Part shown: one piece after another, positions 307 to 54,898 of the stretch
How positions within the stretch are numbered: position 1 is the first letter of the stretch
Layout: each line of letters opens with the position of its first letter
Source: Stomoxys calcitrans
Taxonomy: Eukaryota > Arthropoda > Insecta > Diptera > Muscidae
NCBI RefSeq assembly: GCF_963082655.1
Contig: NC_081555.1
Location: forward strand, 26,718,776-26,782,775
Length of the DNA stretch: 64,000 nucleotides
Reading direction: 5' to 3'
The notes under the pieces: generated by a model
Seen by the model: only the letters and a program-made list of their open reading frames with translations
What the model was told of the DNA's origin: nothing
Database searches by the model: none
Made by a program: the position numbers and the translations under genes

Positions 307-29163
<28,857 letters not shown>

Positions 29164-42416: not shown

Positions 42417-44666
42417 ATGAGTAAGAAAAGTAAAGGAGGAAGTAATTTGGGGCGCACTTTGATCAAAGATCGCTTTGGTCACACGCCAAGGCGCAAAGTA
42501 GACAATGACACCATGGTAAGTTGAGAAATAGGAATTTGGCTTGGAATTTCTTTCACCATTGCTTTTTCAGTTGCATACCACAGAATTACAAGATGGTTAT
42601 GATTGGGGCCGCTTAAATCTAAGCTCTGTCACTGAGGAATCTTCTTTCCAAGAGTTTCTGAGAACTGCTGAACTAGCGGGTACAGAATTTCAAGCGGAAA
42701 AACTAAACATCACCTTCATTAACCCCAAACAAGGTGTGGGTCTGCTGTCGCGCAACGAAAGATTGAATATCGAGAAGAAGCACAAAGACAACAAAGATTT
42801 ATTGAAAATTCCACGAAGACCCAAATGGGCGCCAGAAACCACTGCCGAGGAATTACAACAAGCCGAACGAGACAATTTTCTGGACTGGAGACGTAATTTG
42901 GCTTTGCTGCAAGAAGATGAGGATATTATAATGACTCCATATGAAAAGAATTTAGAATTTTGGCGTCAGCTATGGCGTGTAGTTGAACGATCGGATGTGG
43001 TGGTACAAATTGTAGACGCTCGCAATCCCCTTTTATTTAGAAGTGAAGATTTGGAAAAGTATGTCAACGAAATTAATCCACAGAAGATGAACATGATTTT
43101 GGTTAACAAATCGGACTTGTTAACAGACCAACAAAGGAAATATTGGGCAGAATATTTCGATGAGCAAGGCATAAGAACTGCTTTCTTCTCGGCATCTCTG
43201 GCAACGGAAGAATTAAAGGAGGAGGCGAAAAATAAAGAAGAAAAACCTGCCAAAACGGAACTCAAAGAGAAAAAGGCCAAAGAAAATGAAGAGGATTCAA
43301 CACAAGTACATAGCGACAGCCATTCTGATATAGAAGAAAACACGCCAGCTGATATATCTCTAAAAGAACTCAAAGAAGCTGCCTCATTGATCAATAATAA
43401 CCTGGATATGTTAGAAGCTAAACTGAAGCAAATTGAAAAGAAATTACCCACCCCCCAAGAGGAAAAATCGGAAATGCACTTCATTAAGAATAGCCATAAA
43501 TTGCTCACACGAGAGGAGCTGATTGAATTCTTCAAAACTATCTATCAGGGAAGCACACACACGGAAAATGTAACCACCATTGGTTTAGTTGGCTACCCCA
43601 ATGTGGGTAAAAGTAGTACCATCAATGCTTTGATGACAGAAAAGAAGGTTTCTGTCTCAGCCACACCGGGAAAAACAAAACATTTTCAAACTTTGTTTTT
43701 GGAGAAAGATTTATTGCTATGTGATTGTCCTGGGCTGGTAATGCCCAGTTTTGTGTTAACAAAAGCCGATATGATTCTCAATGGTATACTGCCAATTGAT
43801 CAGGTAGGGCAGAATGTGAAAAAACTTTTAATTGTTGTGGTCTAAGATTTTATGAACTTTTTCAGATGCGTGACCATGTTCCCGCTGTAAATTTGTTGTG
43901 CTCACGTATTCCCAGACATGTTTTAGAGGATAAATATGGAATTATTATTGCCAAACCATTAGAAGGTGAAGATCCTGACCGTTGCCCGCATTCTGAGGAG
44001 CTGTTATTGGCCTATGGATGTGAGTTAAATTGTTAAAACTTTGAAAAGGCAAATAAAGTTCATACTCCAGTCATTGAGCCAACAATCCTTTACTAAGTTG
44101 TTCTTGGATCATTCTCAACACTTGAAGCAATGCTGAAATTAGCACTTTTCCAACTAATTTGGTTTTTTTCAATTTTCAGACAATCGTGGTTTTATGACCT
44201 CCAATGGCCAGCCAGATCAGTCCAGATCTGCCCGTTATGTTTGCAAAGATTATGTCAATGGCAAGCTTTTATATTGCGTTGCTCCACCCAACGTTGAACA
44301 ATCCGTTTATCATACATTCCCAGAGCGAACGCGCAAGGAAGTACAGGAAGCGTCGTTACCCGATCAACAACAAAGGGCTATGAGGGTAAGTTTTTTATAT
44401 AAATTTATTTAGAATTCATTAGTGACTTATTTTGTTCCAATTGTTAGGTCAAAACTAACACTTCGTCCAAGGATTTGGATAGTAAATTCTTTGCTGGTCA
44501 ATCATCAGCAGCCCATGTAAAAGGTCGTGCCAATTTCCCACACATACGTTTGGCCAATGATGGCAGCCTAGTTGAAACCGATCCCTCAGCAAAACCATGG
44601 CGTAATGTTAAAAAGGAGAGGCGTGAAAAATTGCGCAAAAAATTTAATCATTTAGATCAACATTAA
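42417..44666 (+). CDS. Ns3: Large subunit GTPase 1 (LSG1, fly nucleostemin 3)
   Basis: Five exons join in frame: 42,417-42,515, 42,571-43,803, 43,866-44,019, 44,180-44,385 and 44,448-44,666 (1,911 nt, 636 residues; human LSG1 is about 660). The start ATG follows TTCAAA and yields MSKKSKGGSNLGRTL, the family N-terminus. The GTPase is circularly permuted as in the YlqF/YawG class: DARNPLL and NKSD (G4) come first, then G1 GYPNVGKSS and G3 DCPG. An acidic, Lys/Glu-rich insert lies between G4 and G1. A basic C-terminal tail ends KKERREKLRKKFNHLDQH. The family releases the export adaptor NMD3 from 60S subunits in the cytoplasm. Fly orthologs are called Ns3. All introns are short (55-161 bp), unlike the repeat-filled neighbours. 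Confidence 0.95.
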
Positions 44667-49454: not shown

Positions 49455-49618
49455 TTGAGGTTGGGTAAGAGTGGCAGTCCTTTACAGACTCACTTAGACA
49501 ATTTTAGGTCCATTGTGATACCACAGTAGCGACAAACTAAGGCTTCTGGCGGGAATCGAACCCACGACCCCTTCAAGGGTAATCCAAGGACGCTACCAAA
49601 TCCGCTACAGGGGCGCCC
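49455..49618 (-). mobile_element. tRNA-derived SINE, second family
   Basis: The minus strand reads from GGCGCCCCTGTAGCGGATTT (box A TAGCGGATTTGGTAGCG) through box B GGGTTCGATTCCC (about 49,551-49,563 on +) to a body with ATGGACCTAAAATTGTCTAA. The head resembles a tRNA more closely than the first family, but no 3' acceptor strand follows, so it is a SINE head, not a tRNA gene. Confidence 0.7.
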
Positions 49619-50003: not shown

Positions 50004-53000
50004 TTAACCCTTTAGACTAGTCATGCCGGCGCGCATAACCTCATCGACCAGCAAGAGATTACTGGCAATTACCGAACAGGAATTCAATGTTTGTTTCTTA
50101 ACTATGTAATTGTCGTATACGCCCAGATCTACAGGTTTCATGGGTTCTCCCGTGGATAGATCCAGACCCACAGGATCAGGATTTAGACGATCCTCCTCTG
50201 TTAACTTAACTATGGTATCTTGAGCATCATAGCCACTATTGATGGCCAAATTCTTGGGTATAACCAAAAGAGCTTCGGCAAATGCCTGTATGCCCAAGCG
50301 TACCTTGCCCTTAACGGTATCCTTGTGTTTCATCAATTGGTTATAGGCTCTTACTTCGAAAGCACTGGCTCCTGGGACAACACATTTGTCATTAATGGCA
50401 TTGTTAATGGCTCTCAAACCATCACGAATGGCATCCTTAATTTGGACAATGGTATGTTTGTTGGGACCCTTGATCAAGATGGTCACAGATTGGGGATTCT
50501 TGCATTCTTCGACAAATGTATACTTGTTCTCACCCAATACATGTTCATAGACAACACCAGCATAGCCCAAATGAGATTCTTCCAAATCATCGACCGAATT
50601 CATGGCAGTACCACCACAGGCCAAAGCCAAACGTTCCATGTTACGGCGCTTGGCGCGACGCAAGGCCATAATGCCTTCTTTGGCCAAGGCATCCAAAGAC
50701 ATGGGGTCAATACCCTTTTGATTGATGACCACAAATGACTTGTCAGTACCATCACAGACCTTACGTTTCAATTCGATGATTTTCTGGACTCTTTGATCAA
50801 TAAATTCACGTTCAGCCTTGACAAACTTTTCACGTTCTTCCGCAGTTTTATAGAAGAAACCAGAGTTTACCTCAGATTTCTCGTATTCCATGGAAACGTT
50901 GCAAGTCAAAATGTAGGCCTTTTCCAAACGCTTGGGCATATCAGGATGTCTGGAGCCATGATCCATAACCAAACCCTTAATCAGAGAAGTATCTGTGGCA
51001 GTTTTATGTTGCATTTCCATAATTTCCACCATGTGCAAGTCAACTGGTTTCTCATCTTGACGAATGGCCAAAATGGCATCAACACAAACATCGGTCAACA
51101 AATCGGCTAAAGCTGCATGGACCTTAGTCTTCAGACTGGTACGAGCAACTTCAGTTAAATTCTTCTTATTGACTTCAATGGGAATTTTCATTGTCTCCAA
51201 GACAGCCAAGGCTTGCTCGCGAGCTTTCTCAAAGCCTTCAGTGACAATGCGAGGATGTAAACCTTCGGCCAAGAAGATATCAGCTTGCTTAAGCAATTCG
51301 CCAATGAGCAGAACAGTGGATGTAGTACCATCACCAGTAGAATCATCTTGGGCGGTACTGGCACGGGCTATCATAGAGGCAGTTGGATGTTGAATTTGCA
51401 TTTCATGCAAAAGAACATTGCCATCCTTGGTGATTTTTATATCGCCAGCGCCGGAAACCAACCTGAAAGGAAGAAAAAAAAAATAAATTACTATTCTATT
51501 TTCCAGTCTGCTTTACTGTGGTTCAAATCCTTTAATTTCTAAAACATTTGTAGCCTAATGGTTCCGAACTGAGACCAATTTTTAGGATCACCAATTCAAA
51601 TTAAAATATGCAAAATTTATCTAGCGCAAGCTTTATAACAAATTGCCAGAGTAATACAACAATTTATAGGCTAATTGCGCTTAATGACATTCTTATAATG
51701 GAAAAAAAATATATAAAAATTTAAAAATAATTGTTAAAAACAACTAAAAGAAATAAAAAAAAATGAAAAAAAAAATTAAAAAACAAAATTAAATAACTTA
51801 ATGAAAATACAAATATATAAAAAAAAATTAATTAAAAAGATATTTGTAAAAATTTAAATAAAAAAGGAAAAAACACAAAAATTAAGAAAAAAATATATAT
51901 AAAAAATAAGAAAAAATAGTTCAAAATTAATTAAAAAAAACAAAGAAATAATTAATAGAAAATATGTAAAAAATATATAAGAAAAAAATAAAAATAAATA
52001 AATAGAAAAATAAACAAAAAAAATAAATAAAAAAAAATAAATAAAAAAATATATAAAAAAAATAAATAAAAAAAAAAATAAAAAAATAAATAAAAAAAAT
52101 AAATAAAAAAAATAAATAAAAAAATAAATAAAAAAAACAAGAATTAAAAAAGATATTTGTAAAAATTTGAATAAAAAAAGTAAAACACAAAAAATAAGAA
52201 AAAATATATATAAAAAATAAATAAGAAAAAATATATAAAAAAAAATAAATAAAAAAAAATAAATAAAAAAATAGTTCAAAATTAATTAAAAAAATAATAA
52301 AATAATTAATAAAAAATATGTAAAAAATATATAAGAAAAAAATAAAAAAGAAGAAATAAAAAAATAAATAAAAAAGTTAATAAAAAAAATTAATAAAATA
52401 AAGAATAAAAAAACAAAAAAATAAAAAATAAAAAAAGTACATAAGAAAATTAAGAAACAAAATAAGTAAAGAATTATTTAATAAAGAAAAATATACAAAA
52501 TTAATAGAAAGATATATAAACCTATAAAAAAGTAGAATTAATAAAAAGTAAGATATTGTTAATTAAAAGTGAAAATAATAAAAAATTAGAAAAGTAAAAA
52601 AATTAATGAAAAAACTTTAAATTTAATTATTATTAATTAATCAAAGAATTAAACTCAAAAAAAAAAAATAATATGTATATAAACAATAAAAAAATAACAA
52701 AAGTTTATATATAAAATATAACAAATAAATTAAGATTAATAAAAAAAGAAAAAAATAAATTAAAACAAATACACAAAAAAGAATAAATTAAATAAAAACA
52801 AATACACAAAAAAATTGGTAAAGAAAAGAAAAGCGAAATATATTTAAATATAAAAGGAAAAAAATAAAAAATAGAAAAAAAGTATATAAAAAAAAAAAAA
52901 TAAAGTATATAAAAAAGTATATAAAAAGAAAAAATTAAGAAATAAATATATAAAAATATTAAGAAAAAAAAAATAAATAAATAAAAATAAATAAATAAAT

Positions 53001-54898
53001 AAAAATAAATAAAAAGTACAAAAAATAAATAAAAAGTAAAAAAAAAAATAAATAAAAAGTACAAAGTATATCTAAAAAGAAAAAAAATGAATAGAATGTA
53101 AAAAATAATAAATAAAATAGAAAAATATATACAAAAAATGAAAAAAAAAAATTATACATAAAAAAATTATATACATAAAAAATTATATACATAAAAAATA
53201 AATAAAAAATTATAAAATAAAATACTAAAAAATAAATAAATAAAAATGATACGTAAAAATTTTATAATAACAAAATAAATAAAATTATAAAAAATATAAA
53301 AACCATTGCATAAAAATCTATAAATACCAATATATGAATGAAAAACAAAAAATATTTTAAATTAAAATATATGTTGCCTAATGGTTCCGAAATGGCACCG
53401 AAGTTTTTTTCACCATTTCAAATAAAATTATGCGAGATTATTCTGGCGCAAGCTTTATAACAAATTGTCTGTGGAATACAACAATTTATAGGCTAATTGC
53501 GCAAGTAAATCATCCAGAAGAGTATTACCCTTAAAACGATTGTTACCTAATGGTTCCGTACAGAGACCAAAACAGGATCATCTGCACAAATTAAATTAGG
53601 TATAAATTTCTCTAGCACAAGCTTTATAACAAATTGTCAGTGGATACAACAATTTATAGGCTAATTGCGCATGTTAATCGCCCAGTAGAGTATTGTTACC
53701 AAATGGTTCCGAACAAAGACCAAAACAGGATCATCTGAACAAATTATATTTGGTGTAAATTTCTCTAGCACAAGCTTTATAACAAATTGTCAGATTTTAA
53801 AAACAATTCGTAGGCTAATTGTGCGTAGGGTTACTGATGCGAAATAATTTAAAGGGTTTGCAAAATCTAACTTAGATATGCAAAGACTTGTAGTTTAATT
53901 TGTACGAATATGGATATATAGCATATTATATCCTATTCAGAGTTATTTAAACACATTAATCTGGCACAATATTTTTCATGCATCATCCAATGATATAAAA
54001 ATGATACATAGGCAAATTGTGCACGACAAGAGAATAGTTTACAGTTTGCCGCAATTCTATACGCTCCACTACTACGAGAAGGATCACCTTTTGTGTAACC
54101 ACAGCCCCTCAATTTCGAGAAGACACAAAATAACGTTTTTTCCTTAGTCTTCTTGTCGTTTGGGATTTCAGTATTAGCCTGTCTTGACTTGCTCGACCAT
54201 TTTTACAGGTGAGTTTCCCCCCGGTCCGCCTGGTCCCTACTATTTCTCCTAGTTTTTGGTCTTTTGCGTTGCTTTTCCATTTTTCTGTCGCTCTGCTGTC
54301 TTGCATTTATTGGGGTGTTTTTCTAAAATCTTTGAAAAACAATGTAAAGAAATTGATTTTTCAATTCATTATTCCTCAACTTAATAACAAACTCAAAATG
54401 TGTGTAAGCTAAATAAAGTCTTTTTCTGTTGAACAGAAAAAGACTTTAAAAAACCATTTTACCACCCACAGATATTTTTCATCTTCAAAAAAGACCATCT
54501 GTTCATAAAAACTCCAAATTACATTAAACCAAACACTTTCCAACACTAAAACCAACATTCTTCACTATTTGATGACACATTCATTCATACAAACTAACCT
54601 AACTTTTCTTAGACAAAAAAGAGACACCAAATGCCGACACCCCGTGATTATTCTTCAAACAGATGCTTTCTAAATCTCTTGTAAATCGTTGAATACTACC
54701 AAATTCATGGAAATTCTTTAATTTATCAACGACTTATTTCATAAACCCTTAAAATACTTACATTTTCATTGTTCCTTTGGGTCCCAAATTGGTTCGCATG
54801 ACATCTTGCAAACCCTTGGCTGCCGAGATATTTATGGCCAAGGCATTTGCGGCACGGGCAAATTCAGCTTTGGGATTCAACAAACTAATTGAAGCCAT
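50004..54898 (-). CDS. CCT6: CCT6 / TCP-1 zeta chaperonin subunit
   Basis: Two exons on the minus strand: 54,762-54,898 and 50,004-51,462. The 137 and 1,459 nt sum to 1,596 nt, 531 residues plus stop, the usual length of CCT zeta. The Met codon ATG is split by the intron (GTMKM then [10 protein letters not shown]). Start [20 protein letters not shown]. Group II chaperonin signatures: [10 protein letters not shown] and [13 protein letters not shown] near the N-terminus, the nucleotide motif [10 protein letters not shown], and GIDPMSL and [15 protein letters not shown] in the apical/intermediate part. [13 protein letters not shown] and the C-terminal ATP-site region around [27 protein letters not shown] and [10 protein letters not shown] complete it. 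It is one of eight subunits of the cytosolic TRiC/CCT complex, which folds actin and tubulin. The single 3.3-kb intron contains five candidate H/ACA snoRNAs on the same strand, fitting a snoRNA host role. Confidence 0.97.
51546..51684 (-). ncRNA. Candidate H/ACA snoRNA, copy A (CCT6 intron)
   Basis: On the minus strand, hairpin 1 closes with GCGCAA/TTGCGC and an inner TATAA/TTATA stem. The H box AGATAA follows the hairpin directly. Hairpin 2 has an upper stem GAATTG/CAGTTC (one G-U), a pocket arm GGAACC and a partly mismatched lower stem, then ACA. The upper stem to ACA distance is 14 nt. The weakest lower stem of the set (two mismatches in GCATATT/ATTAGGC), and separated from the others by the AT tract, so possibly decaying. 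Confidence 0.6.
51700..53368. repeat. 1.6-kb A/T-only simple-sequence tract in CCT6 intron
   Basis: Almost entirely A and T on +, with repeated AAATAAATAAAAAA and ATATATAAAAAA phrases. C and G are very rare, and A dominates this strand, so the CCT6 transcript carries long U-rich runs. Long minus-strand reading frames rich in F, I, Y and L are artefacts. Partial internal duplication: 51,835-51,985 resembles 52,140-52,330 (AGATATTTGTAAAAATTT). Confidence 0.9.
53369..53506 (-). ncRNA. Candidate H/ACA snoRNA, copy B (CCT6 intron)
   Basis: Hairpin 1 closes with GCGCAA/TTGCGC, and the H box AGAATA follows one base after the stem. Hairpin 2: lower stem GCATAAT/ATTAGGC with one mismatch, upper stem GAAATGG/CCATTTC perfect over 7 bp, pocket arms TTTATTT and GGAACC, tail AACA. 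14 nt from upper stem to ACA. The upper stem sequence differs fully from copy C but still pairs, supporting a conserved fold. Confidence 0.75.
53538..53674 (-). ncRNA. Candidate H/ACA snoRNA, copy C (CCT6 intron)
   Basis: Best-formed unit. Hairpin 1: GCGCAA/TTGTGC (one G-U), AGC/GCT, TATAA/TTATA and ATTGT/ACAAT. H box AGAGAA. Hairpin 2: lower stem ACCTAAT/ATTAGGT perfect, upper stem GTGCAGA/TCTGTAC (one G-U), pocket arms TTAATTT and GGAACC, tail AACA. 14 nt from upper stem to ACA. By the H/ACA pairing rule the predicted target is 5'-GGUUCC-(Psi)N-AAAUUAA-3'. Only about 17 nt separate it from copy D. Confidence 0.8.
53691..53828 (-). ncRNA. Candidate H/ACA snoRNA, copy D (CCT6 intron)
   Basis: Hairpin 1: GCACAA/TTGTGC, compensating the G-U seen in copy C. 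H box AGAGAA. Hairpin 2: lower stem ACCAAAT/ATTTGGT, a compensatory A-T swap relative to copy C, with pocket arms ATAATTT and GGAACC and tail AACA. The upper stem is weaker (CAGA/TCTTTG region). Same predicted pocket as copies B and C. Confidence 0.75.
53886..54026 (-). ncRNA. Candidate H/ACA snoRNA, unit E, different guide (CCT6 intron)
   Basis: Hairpin 1 closes with GCACAAT/ATTGTGC (7 bp); the H box AGATTA follows one base later. Hairpin 2: lower stem GTTTAA/TTAAAC, upper stem GAATA-GGATATA pairing with TATATCC-TATTC around one bulged A, then TACA as tail. 14 nt from upper stem to ACA. Pocket arms ATAACTCT and GTACAAA predict the target 5'-UUUGUAC-(Psi)N-AGAGUUAU-3', different from the A-D group. 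Little sequence similarity to A-D beyond the boxes and hairpin 1 base, so an independent member. Confidence 0.75.
54415..54447. other. Near-perfect 33-bp palindrome
   Basis: AAAGTCTTTTTCTGTT, one G, then the exact inverse AACAGAAAAAGACTTT. As RNA this folds to a 14-bp stem with a 5-nt loop. It lies in the CCT6 intron upstream (in the sense of transcription) of the snoRNA group. Function unknown; a small inverted-repeat relic is the simplest explanation. Confidence 0.7.

Follow-up and report, generated by a model that had tools for sequence, protein, structure and literature searches.

A cluster of predicted box H/ACA snoRNA genes in the CCT6 intron of the stable fly, with snR49-like candidate guides of two 18S rRNA sites

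Multiple intronic clusters of box H/ACA genes in Drosophila melanogaster were reportedly described by Huang in 2004, to go by the title of that work. In box H/ACA RNAs, about 14–16 nt separate the pocket from the H or ACA box. In yeast, one such RNA, snR49, is listed with sites 120, 211, and 302 of 18S and site 990 of 25S rRNA in a table that, in the part consulted, carries no mark for 211 as conserved in human (PMC8307265). In vertebrates, 18S-120, snR49, and U66 share one row of a chicken table (PMC2653536), and 18S 119 is listed as guided by human snoRA66 (PMC6466398), for which the host is RPL5 and a single target is listed. CCT6A is itself a snoRNA host in the same two sources, carrying SNORA15 in human and an ACA28-type RNA in intron 3 in chicken, and the targets listed for these RNAs are 18S 1367 and 18S 775 (PMC6466398, PMC2653536). 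For D. melanogaster, one paper describes several intronic H/ACA genes with clusters in several host genes (PMC13228274), and a Drosophila study reports pseudouridine sites in 18S (PMC9997552).

Here, we analyzed a 64-kb stretch of DNA from the stable fly, Stomoxys calcitrans (the window), for which an earlier note had claimed five box H/ACA candidates in an intron of CCT6. We consider it highly likely, on comparison of the units with one another and with the rRNA of the same genome, that this intron hosts a box H/ACA snoRNA cluster in which four units, U1–U4, are double guides of 18S U209 and U119 and the fifth, U5, is a diverged copy. Our literature searches, with FlyBase and the 2005 Drosophila catalogue outside their scope, found no paper with CCT6 as a fly snoRNA host, and the main text of the stable-fly genome paper has 0 occurrences of snoRNA (PMC7944917). 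The host gene is arranged as follows.

54762..54898, minus strand: CCT6 exon 1, coding part (45 codons and 2 bases; start codon and GTAAGT read directly, translated)
51463..54761, minus strand: CCT6 intron, the sole one in the coding sequence and host of the cluster (GTAAGT at 54761, TTTCAG ending at 51463)
50004..51462, minus strand: CCT6 exon 2, coding (Pfam, PDB, and protein match; end from the ORF)

Exon 2 matched the Pfam model Cpn60_TCP1 (TCP-1/cpn60) at 5.1e-159 and T-complex protein 1 subunit zeta (CCT zeta) in PDB at 7.7e-231, and its product is Stomoxys calcitrans CCT zeta with 100% identity over 484 residues. Together with GTAAGT and TTTCAG as splice sites, these matches bear out the naming of CCT6 as the host gene. 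The intron is 3.3 kb long and contains an inverted repeat at 54414-54448, in which 16 pairs enclose a loop of 3 bases and which corresponds to a weak miRNA-like match in a permissive Rfam scan. Elsewhere in the window lie ORFs with a PH domain (13493-13942), with a FERM central domain and an RA-like domain (27781-29160), and with an MMR_HSR1 GTPase domain (42541-43842). Letters like the end of a tRNA T-arm, GGGAATCGAACCCACGACC, stand at 49545-49575, where ARAGORN found no tRNA; we presume that this resemblance may reflect a tRNA-derived SINE.

All five units were found at the intron position claimed for them, in the sense orientation of CCT6 (minus strand).

53887..54024, minus strand: U5, diverged H/ACA unit, 138 nt (covariance model from U1–U4, E 2.8e-8; fold z -4.2)
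53957..53962, minus strand: H box of U5, AGATTA
53889..53891, minus strand: ACA of U5
53692..53825, minus strand: U4, H/ACA unit, 134 nt (pairing, folding)
53761..53766, minus strand: H box of U4, AGAGAA
53694..53696, minus strand: ACA of U4
53539..53671, minus strand: U3, H/ACA unit, 133 nt (pairing; fold z -3.6)
53608..53613, minus strand: H box of U3, AGAGAA
53541..53543, minus strand: ACA of U3
53370..53503, minus strand: U2, H/ACA unit, 134 nt (pairing, folding)
53439..53444, minus strand: H box of U2, AGAATA
53372..53374, minus strand: ACA of U2
51547..51681, minus strand: U1, H/ACA unit, 135 nt (pairing, folding)
51617..51622, minus strand: H box of U1, AGATAA
51549..51551, minus strand: ACA of U1

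The plan of hairpin, ANANNA, hairpin, and ACA is present on the CCT6 sense strand in all five units. Two hairpins joined by a hinge are supported by pairing in every unit, U1 and U2 being weak by energy; the hinge always holds an H box that matches the motif definition ANANNA (PMC5932544), with the letters that had been read for U1 to U5 in the earlier note, and an ACA follows the 3' stem in each case, the 3' ends being predicted from trimmed coordinates. The claimed spacing of 14 nt between upper stem and ACA is seen in 5/5 units, and the upper stem of hairpin 1 lies 15 nt from the H box in all of them, so that both pocket distances agree with the box H/ACA rule. The unit length given there, about 138 nt each, does not hold for all of the units, which range from 133 to 138 nt. 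The assignment to the box H/ACA class is upheld by the two hairpins, the H and ACA boxes, the distances from pocket to box, and the compensatory pairs described later. U1 lies about 1.7 kb downstream of units U2–U5, and a degenerate A-rich simple repeat of about 1.6 kb (51700-53350) stands between them.

At gathering scores, Rfam gave no match in the window. A permissive Rfam scan of the intron gave four weak matches up to E 5, none at the cut-off, and the SNORA66 model was not among them. The best of these was snopsi28S-1192 (RF00542), which shares the plan and runs at full length over U3; however, its 24.6 bits (E 0.27) fall short of the gathering score of 44 and its pocket letters are different, and membership in this family was therefore rejected.

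In U1–U4, the strands of both pockets can base-pair with rRNA of the fly's own genome on either side of a target uridine. In U3, they lie as follows.

53658..53664, minus strand: 5' pocket of U3, left guide strand UUAGCCU, which pairs with AGGCUAA of 18S; identical letters in U1, U2, and U4
53621..53628, minus strand: 5' pocket of U3, right guide strand UAUAAAGC, 7 pairs with 18S GCUUUUA and one bulged guide base; identical letters in U1, U2, and U4
53588..53591, minus strand: 3' pocket of U3, left guide strand AUUU, which pairs with AGAU of 18S with one G.U
53550..53557, minus strand: 3' pocket of U3, right guide strand GGAACCAU, which pairs with AUGGUUCC of 18S; identical letters in U1, U2, and U4

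When targets were first sought in protist rRNA, from contaminants of bacterial assemblies, only noise resulted, and insect rRNA letters had no match in viral contigs. The protist genes themselves (L001–L004) are eukaryotic rRNA genes within assemblies filed as bacteria, and one of them, L002, ends in GGGGTTT repeats that we take to resemble a ciliate telomere. Genes for rRNA were located in the Stomoxys assembly by part of an insect 18S primer (PMC5333169), which matched at five places, three of them also matching the SSU model. Four stretches (L014–L017) were taken, and L014, L015, and L017 were scanned, with L016 left out; 18S and 5.8S are present in all three and 28S in L014 and L015. The rDNA copies differ in the extent of their 28S match, which is 5055 bases for L014 (3001-8055) and 2734 bases for L015 (2967-5700) over an equal model length, so one copy holds extra sequence or the other lacks some. 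The target scan used the 18S of L015 and the 5.8S and 28S of L014, the latter being the 5055-base span that may hold an insertion, and covered 2086 uridines with full flanks.

With a fixed register, the best site among these uridines for the 5' pocket of U1–U4 was 18S U209, with a score of 30.5 versus 20.3 for the next site. At this site, GUGCUUUUA-[U]U-AGGCUAAAAC, there are 7 pairs per side, with the right arm needing the one-base bulge in the guide. The best site for the 3' pocket was 18S U119, UUAUGGUUCC-[U]U-AGAUCG, with 8 + 4 pairs, the left arm having 4 pairs of which one is G.U; it scored 26.7 with U1–U3 and 26.9 with U4 versus 19.9-21.7 for the next sites. When one base of slack was allowed where the stem begins at its base, the 5' pocket was still best at U209, followed by 26.2 at 18S U803 and 26.0 at 18S U210, and the 3' pocket was still best at U119, followed by 23.6-24.2. 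Shuffled pockets, which keep only the composition of each strand and were scored in one register, reached the 5' score anywhere in rRNA in 3/500 cases and never with the same uridine as best (0/500), and they reached the 3' score in 24/500 cases for U3 and 26/500 for U1, with U119 as best in 0/500 and 1/500, respectively. On the protist rRNA used as a foil, none of 3429 uridines reached the score of either site in the fixed register, and with slack one 28S site beat U119 (29.6 for U3 and 27.6 for U1). Because of these shuffle and foil outcomes, the 5' pocket match is judged strong by itself and the 3' pocket match modest by itself.

In the Rfam eukaryotic SSU model, the positions aligned with U119 and U209 are 120 and 210, respectively, and we take model position 210 to be yeast 18S 211, by a motif with the yeast letters. 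The two uridines are then counterparts of 18S 120 and 211, which belong to one H/ACA RNA, snR49, in the yeast table (PMC8307265), and because of this both pocket matches gain weight. U1–U4 thus share the snR49-type pair of 18S sites at the level of complementarity, and these four units would guide two 18S sites in an snR49-like manner. They differ from snR49, which is listed with two further sites, in being present in four copies, and the comparison is one of target sites and not of sequence kinship. SNORA66 / U66 resembles them in the human 18S 119 and chicken 18S-120 entries and differs in its host and its single listed target. The RNAs hosted by CCT6A come from the same host family and have other listed targets, which suggests a favored host and not shared descent.

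It is unlikely, in our estimate, that the units are real H/ACA snoRNAs with main targets other than 18S U119 and U209, whether in other rRNA, snRNA, or mRNA. The frequency with which shuffles reach the 3' score and the 26.2 scored by the 5' pocket at U803 with slack speak for other targets, as does the fit of UUAGCC to a GGCUAA that U2 snRNA carries close to its 5' end, as read from an oligonucleotide in PMC13228274. However, the base before GGCUAA in that oligonucleotide is, by eye, an A; U2 snRNA was dropped as a target because an A in the pocket cannot become pseudouridine. More generally, the single best rRNA sites of the two pockets are counterparts of two sites served together by one yeast snoRNA in the table cited earlier, which argues for U209 and U119 as the main targets.

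The letters of the pockets are also conserved among the copies. In U1–U4, 27/27 pocket columns are invariant versus 57/109 other columns (P 3.5e-7), where the 27 columns were picked from structure and targets after the alignment had been seen and three columns of the 3'-pocket left strand were left out. With columns picked by structure alone, 26/28 versus 58/108 are invariant (P 6.7e-5). For hairpin 2 alone, conservation of the pocket columns of U1–U4 (11/13) is not significant (P 0.13).

Mutual identity is 68-88% among U1–U4 and 56-57% between U5 and the other units. Judged by these values, U1–U4 are tandem paralogs and U5 is a diverged relative, all forming one paralogous family, and the five units, as copies of one ancestor, are therefore not independent cases. 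With U3 as a query, a DNA search across the 1.07 Gb assembly gave at least four matches, U1–U4, with unit U2 matched over 85/133 bases; U5 is absent from the matches listed. Because the matches listed are U1–U4 alone, the CCT6 intron looks like the only source of the U1–U4 family in the assembly.

Folding energies gave z values of -4.2 (U5), -2.2 (U4), -3.6 (U3), -1.75 (U2), and -1.0 (U1), and 0, 4, 0, 10, and 34 of 200 shuffles, respectively, folded as well. In this folding check, of a kind proposed in the earlier note, the energies of U2 and U1 lie near those of shuffles. Folding energy alone is mixed and would not settle the structure; the comparison among copies decides. Among U1–U4, 115/120 cells are paired (0/500 shuffles as high), 7/30 pairs show change on both sides (1/500), and further pair types number 15 (22/500). 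Among U1–U5, none of five pairing measures was reached by any of 500 shuffles: 143/150 cells are paired (95.3%; 0/500), a percentage that leans in its own favor because the structure was derived from these same sequences, and 13/30 pairs have changed on both sides (0/500), a measure less prone to this bias. Controls in which the partners were slid gave 31-41% paired cells. A covariance model, R1, built from U1–U4 only and run on the 64 kb, detected U5 at E 2.8e-8 among 7 matches up to E 5; two other R1 matches lie elsewhere in the window (E 0.16 and E 1.8). The former is a weak match at 49387-49297 on the minus strand with a GC content of 0.21. As far as these comparisons among copies reach, the structure of the units is under selection.

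The same cells indicate the strand. Of the 150 U1–U5 cells, 16 are G.U and 0 are A.C, and because the opposite strand would turn G.U into A.C mismatches, the RNA would be that of the CCT6 sense strand.

snoRNA pseudogenes are common in animals. The weak 3' lower stem of U1 and the position of U1, set apart beyond the 1.6 kb simple A-rich repeat, are what a decaying tandem array of pseudogenes, with retired guide copies kept by chance, might look like; however, compensatory changes and conserved pockets among U1–U4 point to selection, and none beyond U1–U4 is among the matches listed for the U3 query against the assembly, leaving such an array very improbable. That the units are a neutral tandem repeat folding by chance, or a mobile repeat, with no RNA function is largely refuted and hardly credible, since, although tandem copies that are 68-88% alike do make up a repeat and simple repeats abound in the intron, the both-side changes in 13/30 pairs, the low pairing of slid partners, the 16 G.U versus 0 A.C, and the lack of dispersed copies among the matches listed in the U3 search all stand against it. 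The units are thus very probably functional H/ACA snoRNA genes, as predicted from sequence.

If the cluster works as predicted, U1–U4 would be spliced out and trimmed into stable RNAs that would assemble with dyskerin/Nop60B and its partners among the H/ACA proteins. Pseudouridine would then be formed at 18S U209, presented by the 5' pocket, and at 18S U119, presented by the 3' pocket, giving U1–U4 the role that snR49 has in yeast at 211 and 120. U5 would descend from the same ancestor and would have diverged, with changed pockets. It retains the plan and strong stems, and its pockets differ from those of U1–U4. A search of rRNA with the U5 pockets gave no convincing target, as the best scores were reached by 479/500 (5') and 87/500 (3') shuffled pockets; because its pockets are no better than shuffles on rRNA, guide function is not claimed for U5. 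Membership of U5 in the H/ACA class is supported and guide function is not.

The 5' site also varies among insects. A primer table gives UUAGAUCAAAACC at this site for a stonefly and AUUAGGCUAAAACC for a hoverfly (PMC4272292); the table entries consulted leave the gene unnamed, and we infer from the match that these primers are 18S. The Stomoxys 18S carries the hoverfly letters. Scored with the left arm of the 5' pocket, these fly letters give 17, compared with 5 for those of the stonefly primer. Such a fit would be expected if the guide had followed the rRNA, and, coming from one guide in one species, it is no proof. A fuller scenario is possible but doubtful: yeast and fly would share an snR49-type double guide with its pair of 18S targets, the strand of the 5' pocket would have followed a change of the fly rRNA from AGAUCAA to AGGCUAA, the guide would stand in four copies in the intron of CCT6, a snoRNA host in vertebrates too, and U5 would be drifting to a new target. 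If this were true, guide and target would visibly co-evolve.

H/ACA genes in host introns are well known, and the stable-fly CCT6 cluster is a new example that involves no new mechanism. In a window where Rfam at its cut-offs is blank, it supplies named candidate guides of pseudouridylation, down to the exact target uridines, for a livestock pest that lies outside Drosophila. Co-evolution of guide and target becomes testable across flies through the two-site match to snR49 and through the way the guide fits the letters of fly rRNA.
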